From: an uncultured Prevotellaceae bacterium
GTDB taxonomy: Bacteria; Bacteroidota; Bacteroidia; Bacteroidales; Bacteroidaceae
Length of the DNA stretch: 37,949 bases
Reading direction: 5' to 3'
Assembly (NCBI GenBank): GCA_902761605.1
Contig: CACWLC010000032.1
Span: 1 to 37,949 of the forward strand
The position numbers and the translations under genes were made by a program. Every line of letters starts with the position of its first letter. The first letter of the stretch is position 1. A model generated the notes under the pieces. The model had not been told where the DNA came from. It saw only the letters and a program-made list of their open reading frames with translations, and searched no databases. Below, piece by piece: positions 4,233 to 36,915 of this stretch.

Positions 4233-4255
4233 ACAATAATATCGCATAAAATCAC

Positions 4256-9893: not shown

Positions 9894-11531
9894 TTACTTA
9901 GCCTGCTCGAGAGCAAGAGTCTTGGTAGGCTGGTCGCAAACCTCTGTAGGTCCCCAGTACTGGATAGGACCAGGATATACGTAAGCTGTCTTACGAGCCC
10001 ACTCATCACGATGAGCAGCAAACTCCTTGAATGGAGCACCGTCGAGCTCAACGAGAGCCTTACGGATAACAGGCTTCATCTCACCAGCACGCTTCTCCAT
10101 GTTCATCATCATTGTGATGGGCACACCACCAGCAATCCACTGCTCTGCAGGAGCTGTTGTGTTCTTAACGATAGCCATATAACCTGTCTTGCCGTTAGCA
10201 ATCAGCTGAGCTGCTGAGGTACCAAGAGCATAGCAGTAGTCGGCATCGAAGTTAGAAGGAGCAGCGCAACGTCCCTCGTAACCGAAGAAGTGGTGCTGAG
10301 CTGAGAACTTACCAGTGTACTTGCCTTCCTTCTTCATCTTCTCGAGCTTCTGAGCTACCATTGTTGAGAGCAGCTTCTCGGTCTCGATCAGAGATACCTG
10401 TACGTTTCCGTGTGGGTCGCGGTCGAGAGCCAGCTGACGAGCAACACCTGTAGGCAGGCTGTTGAATACAGCAAGATTCTCATCAGTCAGGTGAGCCTTA
10501 ACGAAGTCGATCGACTCGTGACGATCCAGCTCCTTAGCCTCTGGCATAGCCAGAACGTCGTTCAGCTGAGCAATCAGCTTCTTGATAGCAGGAATGAACT
10601 CGATAACACCCTCAGGGATGATAACAGTACCGAAGTTGTTACCATCAGCAGCACGCTGGCAAACAGCGTTAGCGATGTATGTTACGATATCGTCGAGGCT
10701 CATACCCTTCTGCTCGATCTCCTCAGAAACGAGACAGATATTTGGCTGAGTCTGCAGGGCGCACTCCAGAGCGATGTGAGATGCTGAGCGACCCATTACC
10801 TTAATGAAGTGCCAGTACTTACGTGCTGAGTTACAGTCGCGCTCAATGTTACCAATCAGCTCAGAGTATGTCTTACAAGCTGTATCGAAACCGAATGAAG
10901 TCTCAATCTGATCGTTCTTCAGGTCACCGTCGATAGTCTTAGGACAACCGATTACCTGTACACCGTAGTTCTTGGCAGCATAGTACTCAGCCAGTACACA
11001 AGCGTTGGTGTTAGAGTCGTCACCACCGATAATAACGATAGCCTTGATGTCGAGCTCACGGATAATCTCCAGACCCTTCTCAAACTGATCCACCTTCTCC
11101 AGCTTTGTACGGCCAGAACCAATCATATCAAAACCACCAGTGTTACGATACTCGTCGATAATCTCTGGAGTCAGTTCCATATAATTATGGTCTACCAGAC
11201 CACCAGGACCCAGGATGAAACCAAAGAGACGGTTCTCAGGATTAAGCTTCTTTATCTGATCGAAAAGACCTGTAATAACGTTGTGACCACCAGGAGCCTG
11301 ACCACCAGAAAGAATGATACCCACGTTCATCTTCTTATTATTAGCCTCTGTAGCGGGTTCAAACTCTACGATAGGCATACCATAAGTATTAGGGAACAGT
11401 TTCTTAATCTCTTCCTGATCACCTACACTCTGAGTAGCGGCGCCTTCCTTGATTTTTACAGCACCCTGAAGAGCCTTTGGCAGCTTTGGCTGATAAGCAG
11501 CTCTTGCGATTTGCAATGCACTTTTTTCCAT
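9894..11531 (-). CDS. pfp: pyrophosphate-fructose-6-phosphate 1-phosphotransferase
   Basis: Reversibly phosphorylates fructose-6-phosphate with PPi. The 545-aa length matches the long PPi-PFK clade. PPi use is supported by GGDDSN (169-174), where the second Asp replaces the Gly of ATP enzymes, and by Lys in PKTIDGDL (197-204), where ATP enzymes have Gly. The catalytic Asp is D201. The phosphate-binding loop [12 protein letters not shown] is at 73-84 and the substrate motif [16 protein letters not shown] near 260. The other, ATP-type PFK of this window is at 19962-20939. It is first in a two-gene unit with the GH25 gene. Confidence 0.96.
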
Positions 11532-17927: not shown

Positions 17928-18004
17928 GGTTCGGTAGCTCAGCTGGATAGAGCAACTGCCTTCTAAGCAGTAGGTCTTGGGTTCGAGCCCCAACCGAATC
18001 ACCA
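17928..18004 (+). tRNA. tRNA-Arg (anticodon TCT), CCA encoded
   Basis: A standard tRNA with acceptor GGTTCGG against CCGAATC, D-arm AGCTCAGCTGGATAGAGC, anticodon stem ACTGC/GCAGT with loop CTTCTAA (TCT), and T-arm TTGGGTTCGAGCCCCAA. The discriminator is A at 18001, followed by CCA in the DNA (18002-18004), unlike the two tRNAs at the left edge. Confidence 0.96.
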
Positions 18005-18062: not shown

Positions 18063-19469
18063 ATGAGAGTTGACAACAATAATATCGCGCAGAGTCGCAG
18101 AGAACATAGAAGCTTCGCAGAGAATTTTCTATGCAGGTTCAGTGTCTCTACGAGAATGATATCGGCTCTGGCTTTATTAATTCTCTCCTCTTGTAATAAT
18201 AATACGCCTGAGTCTGAAATAACCGACTCCAAGATGGGTAACATATCCTCATCACTATCACTTGATTCTCTGTACACACAGATGAATCGTGATCTTAAAT
18301 CAGAGCTCGACTATTATCTTGAGCGTCATAACGTAGAAGATGAGGGGTATGAGATGGTAGCTGCCTTCGCCAATGGAAAACGCCATAGTGAGAATATCGA
18401 CACAATTGCGATAACAAACATCGGACGATGGAAAGGCAAGAAGCGTGAGGGTACTGCTATATCACGCGACTCATTAGGACGTATCACCATAGGACATTGG
18501 GATAATGATACCCTCACCAGTGGTATACGTATAGACTCCACAGGAACATACATTGGAGCCTTCAAAAATGGTCGCCCAGGCGTGATCACAGATGCTAAGG
18601 CGGAAGGACATGGAGCATATATAGCTACCTCAGGACATTACTTCGAGGGACACTGGGAAAAAGACCAGCGACAGGGTTTCGGACTTCAACTTCTGGAAAA
18701 CGAAGTTGTAACAGTCTTGAAAACCGGTCATTGGCAGGAGGATGTCTTCAAGGGTGAACGTATGAACTACACCTCTGAACGTATCTATGGTATCGACATA
18801 TCACGTTATCAGCATGGTCATGGGCGTAAGAAATATCCTATCTATTGGGATAAGCTCCGCATACGTCATCTTGGTTCTAAAAGTAAGAAGAATATTTCAG
18901 GTGAAGTAGACTATCCTGTATCGTTTATCTTTATCAAGTCTACACAAGGTATTTCAATCCGAAATCCTTATTACGCCTATGATTATGCTGCAGCCCGCAA
19001 ACATGGAATACCCATAGGAGCCTACCACTTCTTCTCTACAAAATGCAGTGGTGCTGCTCAGGCGCAGTATTTCATAAATAGCACACTATTCCGTACAGGC
19101 GATCTTCCTCCTGTGCTGGATATCGAACCTTCTGACAGCCAGATATCAAGTATGGGCGGTTCTATGACTATGTGGAGTCATATCCGCACATGGTTGAATG
19201 CTGTGGAGCGCAGATGTGGCGTAAAACCTATCCTCTATGTAAATCAGCGTTTCGTAAACAAATACCTGCCTGATGCTCCAGACATCAAGCGTAACTATAA
19301 TATATGGATTGCTCGTTATGGTGAATATAAGCCAGACGTAAAACTTGTAGTATGGCAGCTGTCGCCTGATGGACGTGTAAACGGTATAACTGGCGAGGTA
19401 GACATCAATGTGTTTAATGGTTACCAGACACAGTTTGACGAGTTCCTCTCTAAGGAATGCATAAAGTAA
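18063..19469 (+). CDS. GH25 muramidase lipoprotein with MORN-like repeats
   Basis: The lipobox LLILSSC is followed by NNN, then a helical stretch. MORN-like units come next (YIGAFKNGRPG..., YFEGHWEKDQRQGFG; about 130-210 from the ATG). A C-terminal GH25 domain has GIDISRYQ (D245) and LPPVLDIEPSD (D353, E355). GH25 enzymes cleave peptidoglycan glycan chains, and MORN-type repeats may bind lipid or protein. Start: the ATG at 18063 has GAGGG 8 nt upstream but gives a 31-residue arginine-rich extension encoded by CGCAGAG-repeat DNA. An ATG at 18156 would start the protein directly at the lipoprotein signal (MISALALLILSSC). I cannot decide between them. A linkage to rlmH, 19 nt downstream, is likely. 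Confidence 0.87.
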   Translation: MRVDNNNIAQSRREHRSFAENFLCRFSVSTRMISALALLILSSCNNNTPESEITDSKMGNISSSLSLDSLYTQMNRDLKSELDYYLERHNVEDEGYEMVAAFANGKRHSENIDTIAITNIGRWKGKKREGTAISRDSLGRITIGHWDNDTLTSGIRIDSTGTYIGAFKNGRPGVITDAKAEGHGAYIATSGHYFEGHWEKDQRQGFGLQLLENEVVTVLKTGHWQEDVFKGERMNYTSERIYGIDISRYQHGHGRKKYPIYWDKLRIRHLGSKSKKNISGEVDYPVSFIFIKSTQGISIRNPYYAYDYAAARKHGIPIGAYHFFSTKCSGAAQAQYFINSTLFRTGDLPPVLDIEPSDSQISSMGGSMTMWSHIRTWLNAVERRCGVKPILYVNQRFVNKYLPDAPDIKRNYNIWIARYGEYKPDVKLVVWQLSPDGRVNGITGEVDINVFNGYQTQFDEFLSKECIK

Positions 19470-19488
19470 TAACCTAAAACCCAATGAT

Positions 19489-19959
19489 ATGAAAACTATC
19501 TTAATTCTCGTCGGAAAGACAGTAAACAAGCATTTCATTGCCGGCATTGAAGATTATTCGGAGCGTATCAGCCATTATATGCCCTTCGAGATAGTTACCA
19601 TTCCTGAGCTCCGCAATACGAAGAACCTCAGTGAAGAGCAGCAAAAAATATCTGAGGGCGATCTGATACTTCGTCAGATACAACCCTCAGACACTGTAGT
19701 TCTCCTTGATGAACACGGTAAAGAATTCCGTAGTATCGAATATGCCCGCTGGCTTCAGCAGAAACAGCAGACTGCCCGTCGTCTGGTCTTTATCATTGGA
19801 GGTCCTTACGGATTCTCCGATGCCGTTTATTCACGCTCTAACGAGAAGATATCATTATCAAAGATGACTTTCTCCCATCAGATGGTGCGACTTATCTTCA
19901 CTGAGCAGCTCTACCGCGCTTGTACCATCATCAAGGGTGAACCTTATCACCACGAGTAA
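19489..19959 (+). CDS. rlmH: 23S rRNA (pseudouridine1915-N3)-methyltransferase
   Basis: A SPOUT-fold methyltransferase acting on pseudouridine 1915 of helix 69 in assembled ribosomes. The length is 156 aa, as usual for RlmH. The SAM-binding trefoil knot motif FIIGGPYGFSDAVY and the C-terminal KISLSKMTFSHQMVRLIFTEQLYRA with terminal GEPYHHE are diagnostic. The TAA is only 2 nt from the stop of the convergent pfkA gene. Confidence 0.97.
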   Translation: MKTILILVGKTVNKHFIAGIEDYSERISHYMPFEIVTIPELRNTKNLSEEQQKISEGDLILRQIQPSDTVVLLDEHGKEFRSIEYARWLQQKQQTARRLVFIIGGPYGFSDAVYSRSNEKISLSKMTFSHQMVRLIFTEQLYRACTIIKGEPYHHE

Positions 19960-19961
19960 GC

Positions 19962-20939
19962 TTAGATGCTCAGCTCGTCGAGAACCGTGATAAGACGCTT
20001 ATCGAAACGCTTGTCTGTACGTATGCACTCAGAGAATGGTACATAGACCACATCATTATTGCGCACACCTATCATGACATTACGCTGTCCCTGCATGATA
20101 GCCTCGATTGCTCCCACACCAGTAATAGAAGCAAGAATCCTGTCACGTGCCGATGGAGTACCTCCACGCTGCAGGTGACCAAGAATGGACACACGCACAT
20201 CGAACCCAGGGAACTCCTTCTTTACACGATCAGCATAATAAAGAGCACCACATTTAGGACTCTCCGACACAATGACAATACATGACTTCTTTGACTTACG
20301 GATACCACGTCCCATAAAGGCAGCCAACTGGTCTACGTCTGTTGTCTCCTCAGGAACGATAGCTGCCTCTGCACCACATGCAATAGCGCAGTTCTGAGCC
20401 AGGAATCCTGCATCACGTCCCATCACCTCCACAAAGAAGATACGCTCGTGGGAGTTGGCTGTATCGCGGATACGGTCCACACACTCCATGATTGTATTCA
20501 TCGTAGTGTCATAGCCAATGGTAGAGTCTGTACCATAGAGGTCGTTGTCGATAGTGCCTGGCAGTCCGATAACGGGGAAGTCAAACTCCACACCAAAGTT
20601 CCAAGCTCCTGTAAGAGAGCCATTACCACCAATAACTACGAGTGCATCGATCTCTTCTTTCACACAAGTATCGTAGGCCTTCTGCATACCCTCTGGAGTC
20701 ATAAACTCCTTGCTGCGGGCAGTCTTCAGAATGGTTCCTCCACGAGTGATGATACCACTTACATTCTCTGTGGTAAACGGCTTTACTTCACCCTTGATGA
20801 GTCCGTCATAGCCTCTGTAGATACCCTTGATCTTGAATCCATTATAGATTCCAGAACGAGTAACAGCGCGTATGGCTGCATTCATGCCAGGAGAGTCGCC
20901 TCCCGATGTGAGAATACCTATGGTCTTAATCTTAAGCAT
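19962..20939 (-). CDS. pfkA: ATP-dependent 6-phosphofructokinase
   Basis: Phosphorylates fructose-6-phosphate with ATP, the committed step of glycolysis. The 325-aa length fits bacterial PfkA. The ATP site is [17 protein letters not shown] (8-24) and the catalytic motif [13 protein letters not shown] (126-138) carries D131. ATP specificity is supported by Gly in GGNGS (104-108) and Gly in PGTID. The Asp that normally precedes that Gly (GGDGS; Asp103 in the E. coli enzyme, close to the Mg-ATP site) is Asn here. Whether that changes activity is unknown. It starts 11 nt after the metallopeptidase stop and is the last gene of a long minus-strand run from atpD. Confidence 0.95.
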
Positions 20940-20950
20940 ATTATTAACAT

Positions 20951-21823
20951 TTAAAGATCATTGTAGTTCTGAATACTGAAGGTAGATGTCTGCATATCGC
21001 CAGTCTCGAAGCCTCTGCGCAACCAACGCTTACGCTGCTCAGAAGTACCATGAGTGAACGACTCCGGAGTAGCCCTACCCTGTGCCTTCTTCTGCAGCCA
21101 GTCATCTCCGATGGCCTTCGCTAGTTCAAGACCCTTCTCGAGGTCACCATACTCCATAGAGTGGTTCATGTCATCCTCGTAGTGAGCCCATACTCCAGCA
21201 TAGTAGTCAGCGAGAAGCTCCAGGCGCACACTGATCTGATTGGCACTTACCTTATCTGTCTGACTCATGGCCTGATGAGCCTTGCCCAAGATGCCAAGAG
21301 AATACTCCACATGGTGACCTATCTCATGGGCGATAACATAAGCATAAGCAAATGTGTTACCCTCAACACCCAGCTGTCGTTTCATCTGGGTGAAGAATGA
21401 GAGGTCTATATAAAGTTTCTGGTCACCAGAGCAGTAGAATGGTCCTACAGCTGCGGAAGCACTTCCGCATGCAGAGTTCACCTGATTAGTGAAGAGCACA
21501 AGTGTAGGAGGCTCATAGGTACGTCCCAGTTCCTGGAACACCTTACTCCACACATCCTCCGTAGATGCGAGGATCTGCTTACAATCAGTTGCCAGCTGCT
21601 GTTCCTCTTCTGTGAAATTCTGCTCATCTACAGTTTCTGTCTTTGCCGACATCTGCTGCTGTGCAGCCTGAAGACCTGCTGAGAGAGGATCACCTCCACT
21701 CATCCAAGCAAACAGTGCTGCTACGATGATAGCACCAATACCTCCGATACCTGCTTTGGCTCCACCGCTCATACTGCGACGGTCCTCAACATTACTACTT
21801 TCTCTTCTTCCTGTAAGTTTCAT
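20951..21823 (-). CDS. YpfJ-type membrane-anchored zinc metallopeptidase
   Basis: A 290-aa protein of the neutral zinc metallopeptidase family (YpfJ). A short cytosolic N-terminus (residues 1-22) precedes one membrane segment (about 24-42) and a polar linker. The catalytic domain carries zinc site HEIGHH (166-171) and a downstream Glu-containing helix ([16 protein letters not shown]). [25 protein letters not shown] is typical of the family. The substrate is unknown. It starts 12 nt after the atpG stop, so it is probably read from the ATP synthase transcript. Confidence 0.9.
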
Positions 21824-21835
21824 AACTTTTCGTTA

Positions 21836-22807
21836 TTAATTATTCACTGAGCCTCCAACAATATCGAGCAGTTCATTTGTAATAGCCTGCTGTCGACTCT
21901 TGTTGTACTGAAGGTTCAGTTCACGCAGCAACTCATCGGCATTATCTGTAGCCGTCTGCATAGCCACCATTCGTGCAGCATGCTCAGAGGCATTGGAGTC
22001 GAGCAGAGCGGTATAAAGCATCAGATGTGCGAACTTAGGAATAAGCTGTGAGAGCACAGTATCCATATCCGGCTCCACGATGAAGTTATCGTTGAGTGGC
22101 TTCACATCGTCCATCTTCTTCTCTGTCTCACGCTCACCTCTCTTCTTTAGATACTCCTGCGACTCCTTCGTAGCGATAATGCTCGTAAGATCACGCTCAT
22201 GATCGGCCTTCAGCTCCGACTCTATATCTATAGGTAGGAAGGTCTTTCGGGTAAGAACCTGTGAACCTGCGCTCTTAAAGTGATGGTAAATCAGTTCAAC
22301 CTTATCTATCTCACCCTCAGCGAATTTCGTACCAAGTTCCATTGCGATATTGATGCAGTCCTGTACGTTGGGCTTATCTGCAAGAGCAGAGAATTCTCCT
22401 TGTACGTTCAGTCCCATCTTCTTCGCTTTCTCATACACCTTTCTGCCTATCGGATAAATCTCGACATTCTCACGTCCGATCTCCTTTGCGTAATCATCAA
22501 CGGCCTGATTCATCATCTTGATAGTGTTGGCATTGAATCCTCCGCAGAGTGAGGAATTGGATGTGAAGACCACGAGAGCAGCCCTTTTTATAGGGCGCTC
22601 CTGGTCAAATATCGTGTGAGCCTCTGCTTCTGCTGCGAGAAACGACTTGAGGATGTGCTCCAGCATCGTCTCGTAAGGCAGCATATTCTGTATTGCCACC
22701 TGTGCGTGATGCAGTTTGCTGGAGGCCACCATCTTCATAGCCGATGTGATCTTTCGCGTGGAATTGACTGAGGCTATGCGGCCTTTAATTTCTTTCAGGC
22801 TAGGCAT
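21836..22807 (-). CDS. atpG: F-type ATP synthase subunit gamma
   Basis: The rotating central stalk of F1. The N-terminal helix MPSLKEIKGRIASVNSTRKITSAMKMVAS and the C-terminal ARMVAMQTATDNADELLRELNLQYNKSRQQAITNELLDIVGG are the conserved coiled-coil parts that enter the alpha3beta3 head. SNSSLCGGFNANT is the conserved Rossmann-like part. At 323 aa it is longer than the E. coli subunit (about 287), owing to inserts around residues 200-230. It starts 6 nt after atpA. Confidence 0.96.
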   Translation of the reverse strand: MPSLKEIKGRIASVNSTRKITSAMKMVASSKLHHAQVAIQNMLPYETMLEHILKSFLAAEAEAHTIFDQERPIKRAALVVFTSNSSLCGGFNANTIKMMNQAVDDYAKEIGRENVEIYPIGRKVYEKAKKMGLNVQGEFSALADKPNVQDCINIAMELGTKFAEGEIDKVELIYHHFKSAGSQVLTRKTFLPIDIESELKADHERDLTSIIATKESQEYLKKRGERETEKKMDDVKPLNDNFIVEPDMDTVLSQLIPKFAHLMLYTALLDSNASEHAARMVAMQTATDNADELLRELNLQYNKSRQQAITNELLDIVGGSVNN

Positions 22808-22813
22808 AGGCTA

Positions 22814-24400
22814 TCAGCTTTTATAAGTTCCTGCGATGTCGGCCATCACAGCCTCGATCTTTGCAGTCGTTGCATCGTCAATCTTTCCGCTGGCGAGTGT
22901 CTCTATCACTTCAGGATTAGAAGAGCGCAGTTTGTCAAGGAAGGCATTCTGACACTCACGAACCTTTGGAATAGGTACCTCGCGCATCAGTCCGTGCACA
23001 CCACAATAGAGGATTGCGATCTGCTCGCCTACTGGCATTGGGCTGTACTGAGGCTGGATAAGCAGCTGATTGTTCTTACGTCCGCGATCCAGTGTCATCG
23101 CTGTCACAGCATCCATATCTGAAGAGAACTTCGAGAATGCCTCGAGCTCACGATACTGTGCCTGGTCGATCTTCAGTGTACCAGCCACCTTCTTCATTGA
23201 CTTGATCTGTGCTGAACCACCCACACGAGATACGGAGATACCTACGTTGATGGCAGGACGGAAGCCTTGGTTGAAGAGGTCTGACTCTAGGAAGATCTGA
23301 CCATCGGTGATGGAGATTACGTTAGTAGGAATGTATGCTGACACGTCACCAGCCTGAGTCTCGATGATAGGCAGAGCGGTGAGTGAGCCACCACCCTTCA
23401 CATGACCCTTCATACACTCTGGCAGGTCGTTCATCTGCTCAGCCACCTCCTGCTGCTCATTCATCTTAGCTGCACGCTCCAGAAGACGAGAGTGGAGATA
23501 GAACACATCACCAGGATATGCCTCACGTCCAGAAGGACGACGCAGGATCAGTGATACCTCACGATAGGCCACAGCCTGTTTAGAGAGATCATCATATACT
23601 ACGAGTGCTGGCAGACCACGATCGCGGAAATACTCACCGATGGCAGCACCTGCGAACGGAGCATAATACTGCATAGCAGCAGGATCAGCAGCGGTAGCAG
23701 CTACCACGATGGTGTAAGGCATAGCGCCATGCTCCTGAAGTGTAGACACGAGGGCTGCAACGGTAGAGGCCTTCTGGCCGATGGCAACATAGATACAATA
23801 GACAGGCTTTCCTGCCTCATAGAAACTCTTCTGGTTGATGATGGTATCAACGGCGATGGCGGTCTTTCCCGTCTGACGGTCACCGATGATGAGCTCACGC
23901 TGTCCACGTCCGATAGGTATCATCGAGTCGATGGCCTTCAGACCTGTCTGCAGCGGCTCCTTCACGGGCTGACGGTAGATCACACCAGGAGCCTTACGAT
24001 CCAACGGCATCTCAAAGGCACCGCTAAGATCAATGTCTCCCTTACCGTCGATAGCTTGTCCCAGTGGGTTGATAACGCGACCCAGCATGTTGTCGTTCAC
24101 GAGGATAGAAGCAATACGCTTCGTACGCTTAACAACCATGCCTTCCTTGATGCCTGAGGTGGTACCCAGAAGCACACAACCTACGTTGTCCTCCTCAAGG
24201 TTCATCACGATAGCCATCGTCCCGTTTTCAAACTCCAGCAGCTCGTTGGCCTCGGCGTTGCGCAGTCCGTAGATACGGGCCACACCATCGCTGACAGTCA
24301 GCACAGTACCTACCTCGTCGAATTTCTCGGCATTGGAGATACCCTTGAGCTGGTCGAGCAGTACCTGGGATACTTCGCTTGGTTTAATCTTATCTGACAT
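22814..24400 (-). CDS. atpA: F-type ATP synthase subunit alpha
   Basis: The non-catalytic nucleotide-binding subunit of F1. The Walker A motif is GDRQTGKTA (about residue 171), with Walker [17 protein letters not shown]. The arginine-finger region is [16 protein letters not shown]. The 528-aa length is slightly above the usual 510. The spacer to atpH (27 nt) is made of A-rich AAAAGTAAAA-like units on the coding strand. Confidence 0.97.
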
Positions 24401-24427
24401 TTTTTAATCTTTTACTTTTTTACCTTT

Positions 24428-24964
24428 TTACTTTTTCAAGGTCGTTAGGATGGAATTGAGCTTTGTCTTGACACTCGCATCCATGCGATAGGTGTCGTAC
24501 TCGAGTATGAATCCCCCGATGATATCGGGGTTCACCTCGGTCTCGAACTCCACCGTTCCATTAGTCTTACTCTCCACCATCTGTCGCATCTTCTGCTCTG
24601 TGGCAGTAGATACAGCTGCAGCGGTGATGAGACGTCCACGGATGACATTCTTCTGTTGGCGGTAAAGCGTGACGTACGAATTGGCGATGAACTGCATCAC
24701 GTTCTCGCGGTCTTCCTTCAGCACCAGCTGGATAAAGGCCTTGGTCAATTCAGAAGGCTTCGTTCCCACAGCAGTAGCGAGAAGAGTCTCTTTCTTGTCC
24801 TTCGAGAGCATCGGATTGTCTATCGTAAACCGCAGCTGTGGCACCTCGACATAGCTCTTGGCGAGCTGTTGCATCTCGGCGTATACAGCATCTTCGATTT
24901 TCGCGTCTGTAGCACTCTTCAAGAGCGCCCGGGCGTATCTTACCGATATGACTCCTATATCCAT
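24428..24964 (-). CDS. atpH: F-type ATP synthase subunit delta
   Basis: Links the top of F1 to the peripheral stalk. The length (178 aa) matches. The N-terminal helical domain begins ISVRYARALLKSA, and the C-terminal conserved block FETEVNPDIIGGFILEYDTYRMDASVKTKL is characteristic. It lies 10 nt downstream of atpF. Confidence 0.94.
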   Translation of the reverse strand: MDIGVISVRYARALLKSATDAKIEDAVYAEMQQLAKSYVEVPQLRFTIDNPMLSKDKKETLLATAVGTKPSELTKAFIQLVLKEDRENVMQFIANSYVTLYRQQKNVIRGRLITAAAVSTATEQKMRQMVESKTNGTVEFETEVNPDIIGGFILEYDTYRMDASVKTKLNSILTTLKK

Positions 24965-24974
24965 ACGTTATCGC

Positions 24975-25490
24975 TTAATTGTCAGTAGAAACCTCATCCA
25001 GCATACGGTCAATCAGATCCATCTGCGCCTTGTCGTCCTTGAGATTCTGACGGAGCACCTTTGAGGCAATCTCCACAGAGAGCTCAGCGACCTGCTGACG
25101 TATATCGGCGATGGCTGCCCTCTTCTCCTGTTCGATGGCGAGTTTTGCATCACCAAGGAGACGGGCGCCCTCCTCACGTGCCTTCTGCTGAGCCTGCTCA
25201 ACGATAGCATCGCGCGTCTCTGCAGCCTCCTTGAGGATCTGTGCCTGACGGTCACGGGCCTCCTGAAGGATTGCCTCACCTTCCTGCTTGATGTTCTCCA
25301 GACGCTCAGAGGCCTCATGGGCTTTCTTGAGGCTGTCCTCGATGAACTTATTACGCTCCTCCACCATACCTACGATAGCGGGGAATCCGTATTTTGCAAG
25401 CACGAAGAAGACAACTGCAAACGCCAGAAGCATCCAGAACAAGAGTCCCAGATCTGGGGTGAGGATTGCTGGCAGTTTACTGAAATCCAT
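24975..25490 (-). CDS. atpF: F-type ATP synthase subunit b
   Basis: The peripheral stalk. One N-terminal membrane helix (about residues 13-33, LLFWMLLAFAVVFFVLAKYGF) is followed by a long charged coiled coil rich in Glu, Ala, Arg and Gln up to residue 171. Length and layout fit. It follows the c-subunit reading frame by about 40 nt. Confidence 0.95.
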   Translation of the reverse strand: MDFSKLPAILTPDLGLLFWMLLAFAVVFFVLAKYGFPAIVGMVEERNKFIEDSLKKAHEASERLENIKQEGEAILQEARDRQAQILKEAAETRDAIVEQAQQKAREEGARLLGDAKLAIEQEKRAAIADIRQQVAELSVEIASKVLRQNLKDDKAQMDLIDRMLDEVSTDN

Positions 25491-25532
25491 TCGCTATAGG
25501 TTTTTATTAATTACTAATTTGCGAAACGGATA

Positions 25533-25739
25533 TTACTTGATCAAGAATGCACAAGCTGCAATAGCGAAGAGAGCACAACCCTCAACGAAAGCAGATGTCA
25601 GAATCATGTTGGTCTGGATCTTACCAGTAGCCTCTGGCTGACGAGCGATAGCGTCCATAGCGCTGCCACCAATCTTACCAATACCCAAACCTGCACCAAT
25701 TGTTGCAATACCTGCACCGATACCGCAGCCCTTAAGTTG
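25533..25739 (-). CDS. atpE: F-type ATP synthase subunit c, 5' end missing or unresolved
   Basis: The open frame encodes 68 residues. Helix 1 is GCGIGAGIATIGAGLGIGKI, the polar loop ARQPEATGK, and helix 2 has the ion-binding E53 in SAFVEGCALF. Subunit c forms the proton-driven ring. The Gln and Ser that usually accompany Glu in sodium-binding rings are Ile and Gly here, which suggests H+ coupling. The oddity is the 5' end: the frame reads TAA CAA CTT AAG GGC TGC, so an in-frame stop lies three codons before GGC and no ATG, GTG, TTG or CTG is available. About nine residues of helix 1 appear lost compared with E. coli. Upstream is only a 35-nt A/T repeat and the atpB stop. Confidence 0.85.
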   Translation of the reverse strand, partial: QLKGCGIGAGIATIGAGLGIGKIGGSAMDAIARQPEATGKIQTNMILTSAFVEGCALFAIAACAFLIK

Positions 25740-25746
25740 TTATTAA

Positions 25747-25781
25747 TATATTTTTTATTTTATATTTTTTATTTTTTATTT
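25747..25781 (-). repeat. 35-nt A/T repeat, copy 1
   Basis: On the coding strand this is A-runs spaced by single T, placed between the atpB stop and the atpE frame. A second copy, identical over 35 nt, is at 36881-36915, again directly after a stop codon. Confidence 0.8.
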
Positions 25782-25783
25782 TT

Positions 25784-26830
25784 TTACTCCGCGTGGTGCT
25801 CCTTATGGGCAAGCCCTATAAACACCGCACTAAGCATAGTAAAGACATATGCCTGGACGAAAGCCACCAGCAGCTCCAGTGCATTCATAAAGAGGAGCAT
25901 GATGATACTGAAAGCGTTAAGTCCTAAGCCGAATCCTACACCCATCGACCAACCGAGGAAGATCACACACGTAAATGACAATATCACAGCGTGACCAGCC
26001 ATCATGTTGGCAAAAAGACGGATCATCAGAGCGAAAGGCTTTGTGAATACTCCGAACAGTTCGATGAGTGGCATTACCGGAGCGGGGTAAGCCTTCAGGA
26101 ACAGAGGCACCTCTGGCCAGAAGATCTCCTTCCAGTACTCCTTGTTGGCAAAGAGGTTGATGGCAAGCATCGTACATATCGCCAGGAAGAAGGTGATATT
26201 GATGTTACCAGTCACGTTTGCGCCTCCAGGGAATACAGGAATCAGTCCGATGAGGTTACAGGTGAGTATGAAGAAGAACACCGTGAGCAGATAAGGAGCA
26301 TACGGTTTGTAATGCTTCTCACCTATCGACGACTTGATGAGGTCATCATGTATCGTCATCACGATCATTTCCATCGCTCCCACAAATCCCTTCGGGGCCT
26401 CGCTCTTTGCGTCGTGCTTCTTATACCAGCGTGCACAACTGAGGAAGATAATGATAAGCACGGCCACCACGATCCATATCTGCAGCACACTCTTGGTGAT
26501 GCTCAGATCCAGCGGACGAACCTCTTCCCCACCTACGCGCTCATAGATCTTTCCGTGATGCTCTTCACTGAAGAAGAAGGGCTCCGGCAGACTGTGAGCT
26601 GTACAGAAGTGCCACTCTCCGGTATTCTCACTACGTACGATGATAGGCAGCGGAATGCTGATATGACTGCCCTGGTAACTGGCGATATGCCATTCGTAAG
26701 AGTCAGCAAGGTGCTCCAGTACTATCTCAGGGATATCGAGCTCCTTATTATCCTCACCCTCATTGGCCCAGACAGACATTGGCAGCAAAGCTACTACCAT
26801 CAGGAGGATTATCGTTTTTAATTCTTTCAT
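25784..26830 (-). CDS. atpB: F-type ATP synthase subunit a
   Basis: The stator half-channel of F0. From the ATG at 26830 the protein is 348 aa. It begins with a signal-peptide-like segment ending in WAN (about residue 23), followed by a periplasmic domain of about 85 residues, a layout known in Bacteroidota. Five or six membrane helices follow. The essential arginine is in ALMIRLFANMMAGH, with conserved NALELLVAFVQAYVFTML near the end. A TTG two codons upstream is the only alternative start. Confidence 0.95.
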   Translation of the reverse strand: MKELKTIILLMVVALLPMSVWANEGEDNKELDIPEIVLEHLADSYEWHIASYQGSHISIPLPIIVRSENTGEWHFCTAHSLPEPFFFSEEHHGKIYERVGGEEVRPLDLSITKSVLQIWIVVAVLIIIFLSCARWYKKHDAKSEAPKGFVGAMEMIVMTIHDDLIKSSIGEKHYKPYAPYLLTVFFFILTCNLIGLIPVFPGGANVTGNINITFFLAICTMLAINLFANKEYWKEIFWPEVPLFLKAYPAPVMPLIELFGVFTKPFALMIRLFANMMAGHAVILSFTCVIFLGWSMGVGFGLGLNAFSIIMLLFMNALELLVAFVQAYVFTMLSAVFIGLAHKEHHAE

Positions 26831-26862
26831 ATACAATATATTAGCAAACTTCGATAAAGTTT

Positions 26863-27252
26863 TTAAGAGCGGTTAGACAGTCTTGCGAAGAAGAATGAAT
26901 GGTGAACGAGTGATACCACATAATACGCCATGAATACCATGAAGAACTGTAGCATCGTATCGTTCTTGTCAGCGAGATACCATGCGAACATCACTCCCAG
27001 TGCCAGTAGCAGTCTGAATCCCGACACTGCAGTAAAGAATGTCGGCAATGACTCCTTGTGGTTCGATGCCACCCAACGCCATATCAGTGCTATTGCCACA
27101 CCTGTCACCAGCAGGAAGGATGAACTGACAATCATCTCAGCCCACAGGTCTAAGTCCCACACCTTCCCCACGATTCTTACTAAGAAGTTCATCACCAAGA
27201 AGATGACGACGGTCTGAAGGATGTATTTCTTGCACTGTTTGTTGATGTCCAT
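26863..27252 (-). CDS. small membrane protein in ATP synthase operon, AtpI-like position
   Basis: A protein of about 129 aa with four hydrophobic segments (about residues 13-30, 42-60, 73-92 and 98-118). It lies between atpC and atpB, where other bacteria have AtpI, a c-ring assembly helper. I see no clear AtpI sequence signature, so assignment by position only is inference. The ATG at 27252 is preferred over a GTG two codons upstream. Confidence 0.75.
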   Translation of the reverse strand: MDINKQCKKYILQTVVIFLVMNFLVRIVGKVWDLDLWAEMIVSSSFLLVTGVAIALIWRWVASNHKESLPTFFTAVSGFRLLLALGVMFAWYLADKNDTMLQFFMVFMAYYVVSLVHHSFFFARLSNRS

Positions 27253-27270
27253 TATCACGCGCGTACCTTA

Positions 27271-27513
27271 TTATTTTAATTCTACACAGAGGCTAACCAC
27301 ATTCTTCTGCACCTCTACGAAACCGCCCAGAATCTCCAAAGATGTCTTACCCTCGCTGTTAAGATACTCTACAGTACCTTTCTGCAGGGTAGAGATGATT
27401 GGTGCGTGGTCAGTGAGTATCTCAAACTGTCCCATTGCTCCAGGCACAAGGACACTCTCTACCGTTCCATCGAACTCAATCTTTTCGGGCGAAACAATCT
27501 TCAGCTGCAACAT
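27271..27513 (-). CDS. atpC: F-type ATP synthase subunit epsilon (short form)
   Basis: An 80-aa protein containing only the N-terminal beta-sandwich (LKIVSPEKIEFDGTVESVLVPGAMGQFEILTDHAPII). The C-terminal two-helix domain that brakes ATP hydrolysis in longer epsilon subunits (about 135 aa) is absent. The next gene starts soon after the stop, so the short form is not a frame break. The spacer to atpD (32 nt) consists of TCAAGAATT-type repeats. Confidence 0.93.
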   Translation of the reverse strand: MLQLKIVSPEKIEFDGTVESVLVPGAMGQFEILTDHAPIISTLQKGTVEYLNSEGKTSLEILGGFVEVQKNVVSLCVELK

Positions 27514-27545
27514 AACTTCAATTTTTCAATTCTTGAATTCTTGAA

Positions 27546-29078
<1,533 letters not shown>

Positions 29079-29127
29079 TTAATATTTAAAGTTACTTATT
29101 CTGTTTAGAGTTATTTTTAGCTGATTG

Positions 29128-29135
29128 CAAAGATA
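29128..29135 (-). promoter_or_regulatory. -7 element for the ATP synthase operon
   Basis: TATCTTTG on the reverse strand, 55 nt upstream of the atpD ATG. A TTTC 19 nt further upstream is the best -33 candidate. Confidence 0.6.
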
Positions 29136-29214
29136 AACATTTTTTCTTAAACAAGAAAACATTTCCATAAAATATTTCTAAATTATATCACTTTAACCCC
29201 AAAATCGGACATTT

Positions 29215-30315
29215 TTACCTGTTCAGGGCGATGTTATAATTGAGATATTTGGGATTTCCTGTCACTTCTTCTATCACCTTCACAAACGGAGGGAAATTGA
29301 TTGTCTCTTTTTCCGTCACTCCCTTTGTCTCCATCATCACGAGGTCGCAGACTGGCTCAATGAAGGTGTCAATCTCAAAGAACTGTCCCTTCCAGATAAA
29401 GCTCTGACGGCGTTTCTTGATGGTAGCACGATATGGATCAGCCTGTTGCAACATCTGCTCGTAGAGGTTGTTGTCTACCTGTCGCTCCGTCTCTATCACC
29501 TCCGATTCCGAGAGGCGTTTCTTCGAGCGGTGCACATTGATCACCTTACCTCCGCTGAACTGTCTGCGACGCAGTCTCACCTCTGTTCCCGGCTCTGCCA
29601 CGAGATATGTCTGTGTTATCTCACTCTCCGAGCACTCTGGTATCTCTCCTGTTATCTCCACACGGAATATCTTCTCCTCCTGTGCTGGCTGCGGCAATCC
29701 AACTACCTTGGCTATCTCATTGAGCACACGGTTGAGCTTCGCCTCGAAGTCATCATGGTTGTTGATCACTCGCAGATGCGGATGACCCGTCCACGCATTG
29801 ATGATCTTCTTGTCCAGCTCACGAGCGATACGCAGACCTTCCTCGTTGGCCTGTTCGTATCGTGTGGCATTGGTGGCAGTGGTATAATACTGCTCAGCGC
29901 CATCGGCAGCCGACACCAGGTGAAGCACTGCATCATAGCGTTCCAGCAGTTCATTGGGATTGGTACCTGCCATCGCCGTTATCTCCTGCCATTCCTCGGG
30001 TTTAATATATGCCGAGATATCCATCGTTCCTCTGTCGCACACGATGAGCACGGGTTTTGTACATACCTCCGCGAGGGTCCTGAACTGATCCTCCAGAGCC
30101 AGTTGTGTCTCCAGGATAGCCCTCTCTCCCTGATAATATAGGTCGCGGTTGGGCGTGAGGTAGTTCCATCCCGCCGTACTGTATATCGTAGGCACCTCAG
30201 GCACGTTAAACACCTTATATCCGAAGCCGGAGAAATACTCCGTTATCTTCACCAGTGCAGTAGTCTTTCCCGCACAGGGTCCTCCTGTCAATACGATCTT
30301 CTTAATATCTCGCAT
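29215..30315 (-). CDS. AAA_28 NTPase with C-terminal CYTH-like domain
   Basis: A 366-aa protein in two parts. Residues 1-190 form a NadR/thymidylate-kinase-like P-loop NTPase (Walker A GGPCAGKTT at 11-19, VLIVCDRGTMDISAY near 88). From about 200 on, a CYTH/triphosphate-tunnel-like domain follows, with alternating charged strands (VRLRRRQ, KVINVHRSKKRL, FIWKGQFFEIDTF). The same domain pair is known in eukaryotic TTD14 proteins; the substrate here is unknown, with a phosphorylated nucleotide or polyphosphate being possible. It is the last gene of the kinase-NhaD operon, 30 nt after nhaD. Confidence 0.82.
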   Translation of the reverse strand: MRDIKKIVLTGGPCAGKTTALVKITEYFSGFGYKVFNVPEVPTIYSTAGWNYLTPNRDLYYQGERAILETQLALEDQFRTLAEVCTKPVLIVCDRGTMDISAYIKPEEWQEITAMAGTNPNELLERYDAVLHLVSAADGAEQYYTTATNATRYEQANEEGLRIARELDKKIINAWTGHPHLRVINNHDDFEAKLNRVLNEIAKVVGLPQPAQEEKIFRVEITGEIPECSESEITQTYLVAEPGTEVRLRRRQFSGGKVINVHRSKKRLSESEVIETERQVDNNLYEQMLQQADPYRATIKKRRQSFIWKGQFFEIDTFIEPVCDLVMMETKGVTEKETINFPPFVKVIEEVTGNPKYLNYNIALNR

Positions 30316-30320
30316 ATATA

Positions 30321-30348
30321 ATTATCATTTATACATTATCATTTATCA
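30321..30348 (-). repeat. intergenic direct repeat of ATAAATGATAAT type
   Basis: Two copies of ATAAATGATAAT in tandem on the reverse strand fill the spacer between nhaD and the NTPase gene, overlapping the nhaD stop. See also 6882-6907 and 31747-31779. Confidence 0.7.
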
Positions 30349-31743
30349 CATCACCGCCCACAGTGCTGTCATTCCGACAATCCATCCAACGAGCACCTTC
30401 GGTGTAATGTTCTTAATATACCATCCCAGCTTCACATGCTCCATCTTCATCAGTGCGATACCTCCGATGCTGCCCACAGACAACAGACATCCTCCAACTG
30501 CTGTTGCATAGGCGATAATCTTCCAGTAGGCACCGTTCTGTACGAAGTTTGCCATATAGTCTGAGTCCACCCACATAACGAGCTGCCGGTTCTCGAGCAG
30601 AGGATAGAGCGATATGTTGCTGATGGCGATGGTGAAGGTGTCAACGATACTGCTCAACAGTCCTGACAGCACTCCCACTATCCACACATTATGTATATTA
30701 TAGTCTATCCATGCCGACACATCGCCGAACACTCCCGTCTCTGTCACCACGCCCATACCCAGCATGATACCCATCACGAAGAGCATCTGCTGTATCGACC
30801 CGTATTTCAGAGCCTGTGGCATACGGCGCTCCATCATCACGTCGGCATTCATCAGCTTGCGGTTAAATGCCTCGTTGACCACCCACAGAACACTGAGCAC
30901 ACAGAGAGCACCGAGGAATGGTGACAGCTTGGTAATGTTATGGAATGTAGGGATAAACCATAGTCCACCGATACCTACGAAGAGCATCACTATTCTCTGC
31001 CACTGGTTGAGGTTGGTGTCGTCGCCTCGATACGGCATCGGCGACCACTGGGTGTCGAGCTTGTCAGGCAACTGTCTGTTGATCAGTACCGTAGGTATCA
31101 CCCATGCCAGCACAGCGGGCAGTGCGAGAGTCATCGAGAAGTCTGATGCCGTCACGCGCCCGTCTTCCCAAAGCAGTATTCCCATAGGATCGCCTATCAC
31201 CGTAAAGCATCCTCCGCAGTTGGCTGCTATCACGATGGCGCTACCGATGAGCATCCTCTGTCGGCGGTTCTGTACTATCGAGTGCATTATCACGAGCATC
31301 ATAGTGGCGGTTGTCAGGTTGTCGAGGTTGGCGGATATGATAAACGTGGCGAAGGTAATGGTCCACAACAGTCGTTTGGGGTTACGTGTCTTTATCCATT
31401 TCTGTATGAAGTCGAAGCATCCGTTGTTGTTGAGTATCTCGATTATCGACATAGTTGCCAGTAGGAACATCACGATACTCGCAGCCCGTCCAACGTAGCT
31501 CAGGAATATCTCATTATAGATAAAAAACTTCACCGCATTACTCGACGGCTCTTCACCAGCCAGATACTCTGCATACTCACGCGGGTGCTGTGACATCACG
31601 AAGTCAGTACCCCAGCTGATGTATACCACCCAGCCAATGGTACCCAGAAACACAGCTATCGCCGACTTGTTCACCCTGGTCAGATGACCGGTGGCAATCA
31701 GCAGGTAGCTTATAATAAGCATCGAAACGATGATAAGTGTCAT
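30346..31743 (-). CDS. nhaD: NhaD-type Na+/H+ antiporter
   Basis: A 465-aa inner-membrane protein of the ion transporter superfamily with about 11-13 hydrophobic segments. NhaD hallmarks are NLDNLTTATMMLV (near 160) and NCGGCFTVIGDPMGILLW (near 200). LSSIVDTFTIAISNISLYP and AVGGCLLSVGSIGGIALM are in the second half. It exchanges cytosolic Na+ or Li+ for protons. It lies between a sensor kinase and an NTPase gene in one operon, next to the ATP synthase locus. Confidence 0.93.
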   Translation of the reverse strand: MTLIIVSMLIISYLLIATGHLTRVNKSAIAVFLGTIGWVVYISWGTDFVMSQHPREYAEYLAGEEPSSNAVKFFIYNEIFLSYVGRAASIVMFLLATMSIIEILNNNGCFDFIQKWIKTRNPKRLLWTITFATFIISANLDNLTTATMMLVIMHSIVQNRRQRMLIGSAIVIAANCGGCFTVIGDPMGILLWEDGRVTASDFSMTLALPAVLAWVIPTVLINRQLPDKLDTQWSPMPYRGDDTNLNQWQRIVMLFVGIGGLWFIPTFHNITKLSPFLGALCVLSVLWVVNEAFNRKLMNADVMMERRMPQALKYGSIQQMLFVMGIMLGMGVVTETGVFGDVSAWIDYNIHNVWIVGVLSGLLSSIVDTFTIAISNISLYPLLENRQLVMWVDSDYMANFVQNGAYWKIIAYATAVGGCLLSVGSIGGIALMKMEHVKLGWYIKNITPKVLVGWIVGMTALWAVM

Positions 31744-31746
31744 ACT

Positions 31747-31779
31747 ATTATCATTTATTCTTTATCCGTTATCATTTAT
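31747..31779 (-). repeat. degenerate intergenic repeat of ATAAATGATAAT type
   Basis: On the reverse strand ATAAATGATAAC and ATAAATGATAAT are separated by 9 nt in the spacer between the kinase stop and the nhaD ATG. Confidence 0.6.
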
Positions 31780-33335
31780 ATTATCTTCACCGGTGCCCAG
31801 AACCATACAACAGTTCCCCTACCGTCTTCCTCATTGTCCCTCGCACCCATCTGTCCTCCATCCTTGTCGATAATAGCCTTACAGATGCTCAGTCCGAGAC
31901 CCGGTGTCTCTTCCTGCAGATATGTATTCTTGTCCGACAGGAGGGCGAAGATGTTCTCCTTCAGGTTCTCCGGCAGTCCTCGGCCAGTATCCTTCACTTC
32001 CACGAAGATACCGTCCTGCTTGGCGTAGTAAGTGAGAGTGATGGTACCCTCAGTGGTATACTCACGGGCATTGTCCAACAGATGCATCACGATCACTCTG
32101 AGCAGTTTCTCATCCAGTCTTGCCCTCATACCTCCTATGGGGTCAACCACCTTCAGCAGCACACCCTCATGCAGCTGCATACGGGTCTCTGCAGCATACT
32201 CCGCCATCTTCTGCTCCACGTCGACTACCGTACGGTCGAAGAGCTGATTGTTTCCCTCAATATCCGACAGCGACAGCAACTCGTTAATCAGGTGCAGCAG
32301 CTGCAGTCCGTTGCTGTTTATCAGTCCCAACAGTTCCTTCTGTTCATCTTCGGGCATAATCTCCGTGGGCGAACTCATCAGCAAGTCAGAGAATCCTATG
32401 ATGGCATTCAGCGGTGTACGCAGCGAGTGGCTGAGGTTACTGAGGAAGATATCCTTCAGCTCCTCACTCTTCTTGGCCCGATCCATCTCTTTCATTATCA
32501 TCTTTCTGGCTATTCGTTCCTGTACTATCACCAGCACAAGACCAACGATGATGACAGAGGCCAGCAGCCACCATACCCATCTGGGGATCACCGTCTTTCC
32601 GAAAGCCGCTCTTATATTGCCGTAAACGTCGTCTATCTCTCCTTCATCCTCCATCTTGTCGAGTTCTGTGTTGATTGCGTCGATAAGCTTTTTGTCGTGG
32701 CTCACATAGCAATACTCTCTCGGTGTCAGTGCGAGGTCGGCTGAGCTAAGGTCGTCGAGTTCCAGCTCCCCGATGAAATAGCGAGCCTGAAATCGGAAAC
32801 ATATCAGTGCGTCGTACTTACCCTTCTGCAGATCTAGGAACGCGCCCTTCAGGTCTTCCACCACCATCGCTTTGGCTCCCACCTTGGTGAGGGTGTCGAT
32901 GATAGGTCTCGACTTCATCAGGGCTATCTTCTTACCCTCCACGTCGCGCAGTCCGAAACGGCCCTCCGACTTCTTTGAGTAAACTATCTGGTAATAGAGT
33001 CTGAACACGGCTCTTGAGTAGTTCGTCTGGTCCTTACGGTATGGTGAATATACCATCATGCCGAGGTCCACCTTTCCGTGCAGCACGTCGCCTGCGATAT
33101 TCGCCCATGTATTTGGAGCAAAGGTGAAAGGTATGTCCATCCTCTCCATCAGCCTGCGAGTAAACTCCACGTCGAAGCCACGGGGAATACCTTTTCCATC
33201 GATGTATTCCATCGGGGCATAGTCCATGTCGATACCGAAGAGCAGTGGTTTATCCTTCGAATAGCCAAGGTTGTCAGCACTTGCCGAAAGGGCAAGCGTC
33301 AGCAGCAGTAGTAGGTTTAGTATTCTCTGTCGCAT
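31776..33335 (-). CDS. sensor histidine kinase with periplasmic SBP_bac_3 binding domain
   Basis: A 519-aa protein. A signal peptide (1-20) is followed by a periplasmic amino-acid-type binding domain (about 30-245; LLFGIDMDYAPMEYIDGKGIPRGFDVEF, KVDLGMMVYSP). A membrane helix lies at about 253-271 and a short coiled linker follows. HisKA has H303 in LSHSLRTPLNAIIGFSDLL, and the HATPase domain has LLDNAREYT, DTGRGLP and GLGLSICKAI. It lacks a receiver, so the partner regulator is elsewhere. The ligand is probably a small molecule, as for related kinases, but cannot be read from the sequence. It is the first gene of the nhaD operon. Confidence 0.92.
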   Translation of the reverse strand: MRQRILNLLLLLTLALSASADNLGYSKDKPLLFGIDMDYAPMEYIDGKGIPRGFDVEFTRRLMERMDIPFTFAPNTWANIAGDVLHGKVDLGMMVYSPYRKDQTNYSRAVFRLYYQIVYSKKSEGRFGLRDVEGKKIALMKSRPIIDTLTKVGAKAMVVEDLKGAFLDLQKGKYDALICFRFQARYFIGELELDDLSSADLALTPREYCYVSHDKKLIDAINTELDKMEDEGEIDDVYGNIRAAFGKTVIPRWVWWLLASVIIVGLVLVIVQERIARKMIMKEMDRAKKSEELKDIFLSNLSHSLRTPLNAIIGFSDLLMSSPTEIMPEDEQKELLGLINSNGLQLLHLINELLSLSDIEGNNQLFDRTVVDVEQKMAEYAAETRMQLHEGVLLKVVDPIGGMRARLDEKLLRVIVMHLLDNAREYTTEGTITLTYYAKQDGIFVEVKDTGRGLPENLKENIFALLSDKNTYLQEETPGLGLSICKAIIDKDGGQMGARDNEEDGRGTVVWFWAPVKII

Positions 33336-33368
33336 TGGCTATTTAAAGGTTTATCCTCATATTGGCTA

Positions 33369-33964: not shown

Positions 33965-36415
33965 CTATTTGCGATTCTTTTTCTGTGATGATGCCTTGAT
34001 ATCCTTATTCACCTTCTTGAACTTGCCATCAGGCAGCATTTCTATTAACCCTGACTTATTCCATCGCCATACTACGTCACGGTTATGCGAGAGGATCTTC
34101 TGATCATTCATCTTCTGTTTCAGCTGGTCACGAGTAAACTCTTCTGGCATCATATCAAACAGGATTCCTGTCTTCGAAGGCCTCTTCTCCTTGCCATTAA
34201 GCACCTCATTGGTATCCTTGCCATACTTCGCTATCAGCGCCTCCACAGCGTAGTTGCTCACATAGAGGGCATTGGCTATGACCTTCTTCTTGACATCTGC
34301 CGTTGGCTTCTCTCCGAGCAGATAGAAGATGATCATTCCGGCCCTGAATCCGTCGTTGGCAGCACGTCGGCGATAGGTATCCCTGGCACGGCTTACCTCC
34401 TTCAGACTCAACAGGCGCTGTTGTTCCAGCCAGTCTTCTATCACGTCGTTAAGCCAGTCGAGGTTCATAAAGTGCTCCTCTGCCACATTGCCCTGCTCAT
34501 CCATCGAGAGCGAGTGGTACACATGGTTTACCGTATCCGTTATCACCTTCTGCTGCAAGGCCGACAGAGGCTTCCACTTAGGTATCTTCGCACCAAACTG
34601 ATCAGGCAGCATCACCGGAATAGTTCTTGTCACCAGACCATCCTCGACATTGCGGAAGAACTTGCCCATCGAGAGGGGTGTCCCAGATACGAGAAGGTTA
34701 TAAAAGATTCTTGCCTTTCCTGAGAACGAATTCTCCGACATGAATTTCTGTCCGGCAATACCGTTCTCGTATGCTATTCGGTAGATGTCAGAGAGCTGGC
34801 CCCAGGTGCCACGATTATGCTGCTTTACCATCGTGTCTACCTCAGGGCAGATAGTTACCGAGTGCAGGCCTTTATTCTGGTAGTTCTGCTTCAACAGGGC
34901 GGTCACTGACACCGTGGCGGGGATGATACGCTGAATCACCATCGGGTCTTCAGGCTGCTTCGCCTTGTTGCGGCATTTCTTCAGCTCCCGTTCATACTCT
35001 ATCTGCTTCTCTTCGCCCTTGGCATCATCGGCAGCCATAGGCTCCAGTAGCATATCGCTGACGTCGATAATCCACGACTTACCTGAACCGGAATCGCCCT
35101 CAACAGTTACGAAGAACGAAGGTGAATGGACACGTCCGTCAAAATACCTCGCTCGGAGCTTCGAGGCGATACATGCAAGACAGAAGAGTACGGTAAAATA
35201 GATCATCTCCACATAATCCTTCGGAGCCCTGCTCACCCACTGCTTAAACACCGGCACCAACGGTGGCAGACTTTCTCCCCAGCTGCTCTTATACTCTCCG
35301 TCGTAATCGTCCTTGCCAAGACTGGCAATAAACTCATCATCATCGAGAGCATCCTCATCCTGTTCGTCCACCTGCATCGAGGCATCGTCGATACCCATCT
35401 CGTGGAGCACCTTCCAGAGCAGATAAGGCAGTTTCTCCGACGGTCTGCGCTTGGCAGCACTCTTGGCGATAGGCTCTACCTCATCCCATTTCAGACCCCA
35501 GTAAGGTATCAGCGTCTGTAGCACCTCTTCCTTATAGTCCACAATCGGGGCCATGTTCGAGAGCACCTTATAGGTTCTGGTGTTCCTGTCGCCTACATCC
35601 GGCTTTCCGCCACAGAGGGTAATCACATTATCCCTTATCTCCGTCAATTTATGCCCCCGATACTCGGTCTGCAACCTCTCTCCGTTGCTCCCCACCGGCA
35701 TCCCCTCGGCATCAAACCTTAGATGCAGCTCATAATCCCCTCTCTTCTCATCGCTTTGCGCCTCTTGCTTTTCGCTGGGACTCTCAGCGTCACATGGGGA
35801 TGTGACGCCCTCATCTACCCCATCATCTTTCAATATTCCATTATCAAAATATATCCAGAAATCCAGCGTCGGCACGAAGCTCGGATGCCCGATATCCTTT
35901 ACTTTTCCATCGATACTCTCAGCAGCAGGATCATCCTTATGCATCTTCTTAAACTCCTCGATATTCGCCTCATTATCCTTCCCTGGCAACAGCTTTGTCA
36001 GGATAATTCTCAACCCTTCTCCACTTGGAGTAACATGGGCACCCTTGGTATGTTCCTTCATCACCTTTGCCACCATCTGCCTGCGCTCCTCATCCTTGAT
36101 GGCCTTGGCATCAAGCAGCCTGTAATACACCTCTGTCGGATCTTCCTTCAGGTGGTCGCAGTCGATAAAGAACAGTCCTGTATCCATTGCTCCCTCAGTA
36201 CCTCTCGGACTACCGTCCTTATACCTTGCTCCCCATGTCACCACAGGCAGCATCTCCTTTCCTGGACGGATATCCTCGCCCGCCTTCTGCAGCTCTGCTA
36301 TCTTAGCCATACCGTTTTTGGTCTGCCTTGATGTCTGGAGCTTGCTCAAGACCGCAGTGGTCAGTGTCTTCGCACTGCGGTCCTTTACACTGTTAAAATA
36401 ACTCGGTCTCATCAT
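33965..36415 (-). CDS. VirE-N / DUF3987 primase-helicase-like protein
   Basis: An 816-aa protein. The N-terminal part (about 50-195) resembles the VirE-N (BT4734/BF3469) primase-polymerase-like domain with FFIDCDHL (D85, D87) and [13 protein letters not shown] (127-139). The middle (about 245-330) is of the primase C-terminal type. From about 380 it is a DUF3987-type ATPase with Walker [10 protein letters not shown] (439-447). Such proteins occur in Bacteroidota mobile elements and are thought to act in replication of the element. The C-terminus is rich in Lys and Ser. It overlaps the preceding gene by ATGA. Confidence 0.85.
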
Positions 36416-36880: not shown

Positions 36881-36915
36881 TATATTTTTTATTTTATATT
36901 TTTTATTTTTTATTT
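36881..36915 (-). repeat. 35-nt A/T repeat, copy 2
   Basis: Identical over 35 nt to 25747-25781. It overlaps the stop codon of the upstream gene (36910-37182). The rest of the spacer to the next start (36781-36880) holds no gene or promoter that I can see. Confidence 0.8.

Follow-up and report, generated by a model that had tools for sequence, protein, structure and literature searches.

Can an uncultured Prevotellaceae bacterium make the c subunit of its F-type ATP synthase from a gene, atpE, that appears to have no start codon? The question is raised by a stretch of 37,949 nucleotides of its draft genome (contig CACWLC010000032.1 of assembly GCA_902761605.1), the whole of which was analysed and is referred to here as the window. 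Within it, the conserved atpE frame lies in a complete-looking operon, and the candidate answers range from an error of assembly to a real loss or an unusual mode of translation.

The atpE locus and its operon

On the minus strand, the stop codon of atpB (TAA at 25784) is followed by an A/T-rich spacer and then by the atpE frame, which reads TAA (25742-25740) CAA CTT AAG GGC TGC and remains open to the stop at 25535-25533 (Table 1). The frame counts 68 codons after the in-frame TAA, which lies three codons ahead of the first conserved residue, as the first-pass annotation of this DNA had stated; its further statement that no ATG, GTG, TTG or CTG lies between the atpB stop and the frame was borne out on reading the spacer, where none of the four occurs. 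The earliest in-frame start-like codons, the TTG of GAGLGIG and then the ATG of GSAMDA, fall within the helices and are too late to serve as c-subunit starts. The frame matches PF00137 with 52 bits against a curated cut-off of 24, and its place next to atpB and atpF is that of a member of an F-type operon. Two full transmembrane helices and a translatable start were also looked for in atpE; there is no start, and the N-terminal part of helix 1 is absent. As assembled, atpE is an incomplete gene, and the lost stretch, judged from alignment, appears to include about half of helix 1. The window contig is continuous and without N.

Pfam matches were obtained for all other subunits (a, b, alpha, beta, gamma, delta and epsilon), and the neighbouring genes are complete, in agreement with the earlier description of them as intact. 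A 131-codon open frame between atpC and atpB (26863-27258, minus strand) has no Pfam match, and may, from its position, be an atpI-like gene. No PF00137 match other than the atpE frame occurs in the genome, whose 80 contigs total 2.73 Mb (84.7% complete), and a V/A-type ATPase, sought in the same 84.7% complete genome, gave no match over cut-off (PF01496, 17.5 bits against 30.7); both an additional c subunit and an ATPase of the V/A type were rejected on these grounds. Elsewhere in the window, two phosphofructokinase-family genes (PF00365) lie on the minus strand at 9894-11531 (134.5 bits) and 19962-20939 (343.6 bits), and an 816-residue protein encoded at 33965-36415 (minus strand) matches DUF3987 (24.2 bits) and BT4734-like_N (21.9 bits), both under the curated cut-offs.

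Table 1. Features of the atpE locus and the surrounding operon, in window coordinates
Feature	Position	Strand	Basis
atpG (subunit gamma)	21836..22807	-	PF00231
atpA (subunit alpha)	22814..24400	-	PF00006, PF00306, PF02874
atpH (subunit delta)	24428..24964	-	PF00213
atpF (subunit b)	24975..25490	-	PF00430
atpE without start: 65 conserved codons and stop	25533..25730	-	PF00137 match, translation
Blunt junction, 53 nt of closest relative missing	25731..25732	-	alignment with L076, length and edge homology
A/T-rich atpB-atpE spacer, including 35-nt stretch 25747-25781	25731..25783	-	sequence reading; similar spacer in L076
atpB (subunit a), longest open frame	25784..26836	-	PF00119, 201 bits
atpC (subunit epsilon)	27271..27513	-	PF02823
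atpD (subunit beta)	27546..29072	-	PF00006, PF02874; 99% match in L076
Second exact 35-nt A/T copy	36881..36915	+	exact identity with 25747-25781

Comparison with relatives

A scan of named genomes with AtpB gave 438 relatives, of which the best 80 were retained. The closest relative found was locus L076 (MAG RUG12212), with an AtpB 99% identical to that of the window and an unbroken atpE of 79 codons. In a MAFFT alignment with L076, one 53-nt block is missing from the window where the spacer meets the first conserved codons; BLAST splits the gap into 26, 4, 6 and 6 nt, and the single block rests on the MAFFT alignment (the L047 row of the spacer alignment was disregarded, as it held the wrong part of that locus). 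With L076 as reference, the missing block carries the atpE start and 14 codons, which in this intact relative lie upstream of the point where the conserved frame of the window begins. The earlier estimate of a first helix about nine residues shorter took E. coli as its reference; it is corrected by the closest relative, which has the start and 14 residues more (79 against 65 matching codons). There is 0 nt of homology between the edges of the block, L076 serving as proxy, and the join is blunt. The CTTAA-type short repeats once suspected at the edges were not found, and a deletion between short direct repeats was rejected for the lack of homology there.

Window and L076 are colinear over 15.2 kb (window 18177-33353) at 93.4% identity, and across this distance gaps of at least 4 nt in the window are confined to the atpB-atpE interval; on the opposite side there is one, of 8 nt at window 27528, between atpC and atpD. 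Colinearity with the L076 contig is lost at window 18177, shortly beyond a tRNA gene (17928-18001), and at 33353; farther along, only window 35940-36239 has a match, to the first 300 bases of the L076 contig. The window flanks outside 18177-33353 may be variable regions.

Of 100 genomes sampled from the genus, 81 matched, the one that holds the window included, and the other 80 have open frames of 79-114 codons, compared with 68 here. When the 79-residue protein was searched in 398 genomes of the genus, 343 matched, again with its own included; among the matches listed, only its own starts at residue 14, the others starting at residues 1 to 8. Some of the 55 unmatched genomes, for example G257, may be accounted for by contigs that break at atpE. 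With the atpE genes of Prevotella and Xylanibacter (PF00137), that of the window shares the place between atpB and atpF, and its 65 codons are 95-100% identical at the protein level to many relatives, whereas the window assembly differs in being without the start codon and 14 codons. Relocation of the atpE start elsewhere in the genome was rejected, since a degenerate 27-base pattern drawn from relatives, covering a portion of the missing block together with the codons that directly follow, gave 0 other matches in the genome with up to 3 mismatches.

Damage at atpE in other assemblies

In a gene-by-gene test, atpE was unbroken in 74 of the 80 named loci. Contigs end inside atpE in 3 of the 80 (L098, L099 and L138); seven contigs among the 80 end less than 3 kb downstream of atpB, three of them inside atpE. 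In-contig deletions in or beside atpE are present in 3 of the 80 loci, all different and, with relatives as proxy, all blunt: 16 nt inside atpE, near 4248, in L077 (RUG13469); 40 nt inside atpE in L095 (RUG14503); and 75 nt near 4024-4025 in L113 (RUG12989), a loss that runs from the end of atpB through the spacer into the start of atpE. L077 and L095 keep the atpE ATG, and their damage is internal and splits the protein match. All three deletion-bearing loci belong to one rumen MAG series, the deletions being in 3 of 13 five-digit RUG-named MAGs compared with 0 of 64 other evaluable loci (Fisher p 0.004, with a post hoc grouping). The atpE start is present in each of the 14 loci titled as isolates among the 80.

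The same test was applied to other genes of the operon as a control. It flagged atpC in 0 of 80 loci, and atpB (6/80), atpF (21/76) and atpH (5/75) were flagged with a frame change in none; among the 4 of 76 loci flagged for atpD, L098 has a frame change and L113 has its first 38 residues unmatched, and the flag for atpA, in 1 of 11, is a frame change in L095. The last locus has a second deletion, of 52 nt in atpA (its damage sites lie near 2879 and 4378). The control is crude, many flags being end or length variation, and only frame changes and in-contig losses were counted as damage; the L113 loss was not flagged by it and was seen via protein matches and the shared-DNA comparison. Besides atpE, frame damage affects atpD and atpA as well, in MAGs that are named in the same way.

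Shared DNA at the breakpoint

Along L076, the most widely shared exact 61-mer begins at 4147 in atpE and is common to 22 of 79 loci. The right edge of the loss in the window corresponds to L076 4152, 5 nt from the beginning of this 61-mer, and is marked by the start of the most widely shared stretch. The window breakpoint ranks in the top 1.0-1.2% of positions by sharing, the unusual sharing that an artefact would predict, and lies in the most widely shared DNA of the 7-kb operon; taken together, the three breakpoints within atpE (window, L077 and L095) rank in the top 0.9-1.4%. The L113 edge is merely in the top 7-17% of positions, and the 52-nt atpA deletion of L095 lies at 33-100%, at no widely shared stretch. 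Because this last deletion is off widely shared DNA, such DNA is not the whole cause of deletions of this kind. The sole other stretch common to at least three loci is L076 5182-5244 in atpH, where up to 13 of 79 loci carry an identical 61-mer.

Contig breaks at this point of atpE are seen in other assemblies too (L098, L099, L138, G257:C58 and G199), as an artefact would also predict. G199 has two contigs that terminate within atpE and whose overlap is exact over 121 nt, the pattern that a graph branch should leave, and G257:C58 ends 8 nt beyond the breakpoint position of the window (G395:C31 was taken as L076, G199:C137 is L099 and G153:C13 is L098, and none was counted twice). Contig breakage at conserved regions is described in PMC11479545. 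The breakage in metagenomes described there resembles the present case in that near-identical DNA occurs in many contexts and contigs end in it (L098, L099, L138 and G257:C58); it differs in that a short housekeeping gene is affected here, and that the window, L077, L095 and L113 show a small gap-free deletion, not a break. For the rumen compendium of PMC6785717, every sample is reported to have been assembled with idba_ud.

Origin of the missing start

The missing atpE start very probably arose as an artefact when a draft genome was assembled from metagenome reads, to judge from the assembled sequences compared here. This reading is favoured because the 80 other matching genomes have frames of at least 79 codons, because L076 is intact and, over 15.2 kb, window gaps of at least 4 nt occur in the atpB-atpE interval alone, because different blunt deletions (16, 40 and 75 nt) occur in or beside atpE in five-digit RUG MAGs only, and because contigs end inside atpE (three of the seven ending nearby, G199 and G257:C58) while the breakpoint falls at the most shared DNA. 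The DNA of the AtpE first helix is nearly identical across many Prevotella species, for which reason short-read assembly graphs would branch there and contigs would break; two contig ends wrongly rejoined at the branch could then give a gap-free contig with a blunt 53-nt loss. We infer that the genome is such a MAG and that the loss was made by the joining step of the assembler. However, joins made by a graph error usually retain a word common to both sides, and the search for one, with relatives as proxy, found 0 nt of edge homology, which counts against an artefact; an artefact without a shared word would need a blunt contig join. Some scaffolders trim contig ends at an estimated negative distance, which would give blunt losses. 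The explanation is also weakened because the L113 edge and the L095 atpA deletion do not follow the shared-DNA rule. With an artefact as the preferred reading, the apparent loss of the start is most likely ordinary, and the atpE in the cell itself is most likely a normal gene of about 79 codons.

A real and very recent 53-nt deletion in the sampled strain, inactivating the F-type ATP synthase in an operon that has not yet decayed, comes second and is unlikely. The uninterrupted contig, the complete neighbouring genes (as expected of a very young event) and the lack of the missing block elsewhere in the genome, by a pattern for part of it, are consistent with such a deletion, but it would remove the sole c-subunit gene found in a genome (84.7% complete) with no V/A-type ATPase over cut-off, its edges are without homology, and similar but different deletions cluster at atpE in one MAG series and in 0 of 14 isolates. 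The first-pass annotation had proposed a deletion or assembly collapse, or noncanonical initiation, with a preference for an artefact or else a very recent event; our comparison agrees with that preference, with the artefact first and the recent deletion second, and lends noncanonical initiation no support. Such initiation, at AAG or CTT within three codons after the in-frame stop, would yield a c subunit without about 14 N-terminal residues and with a shortened first helix. The downstream frame is open and fully conserved, which by itself is compatible with continued use; nevertheless, just CAA, CTT and AAG stand between the stop and the first conserved residue, every one of the 80 other matching genomes has a longer frame, no other match among those listed begins at residue 14, and the lost part would, by alignment, take about half of helix 1, all of which makes this start highly improbable.

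The 35-nt repeat of the spacer, reported earlier to recur at 36881-36915, does so exactly; a repeat finder listed no repeat of at least 20 nt within 25500-26900, and the exact 35-nt pair is also absent from its list. No Rfam element was found in the spacer, the window having just three tRNAs at gathering thresholds. With up to 3 mismatches in 33, the A/T stretch has 14 near-copies in the genome compared with 6 for a reversed control pattern, and because of this ratio and the similar spacer in the intact L076, the repeat looks like ordinary low-complexity spacer DNA outside the defect. That a mobile or recombining A/T element caused the loss is hardly credible: two exact copies in the window and the 14 near-copies would favour it, but the control suggests that much of this signal is low-complexity A/T, L076 has a similar spacer at the same place, and the lost block adjoins the spacer and is not flanked by two copies of the element. 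The proposed route of collapse through CTTAA repeats or the A/T element does not hold, the join being blunt and the spacer still in place.

Implications

Were the noncanonical start true, which is much less likely than a deletion, it would mean that translation of a c-ring gene begins at a non-AUG codon, and were the deletion real, the strain would be without a working F-type ATP synthase. If the missing start is an artefact, it is a warning that small gap-free MAG deletions in conserved housekeeping genes, such as atpE, can be misread as gene loss or unusual translation.
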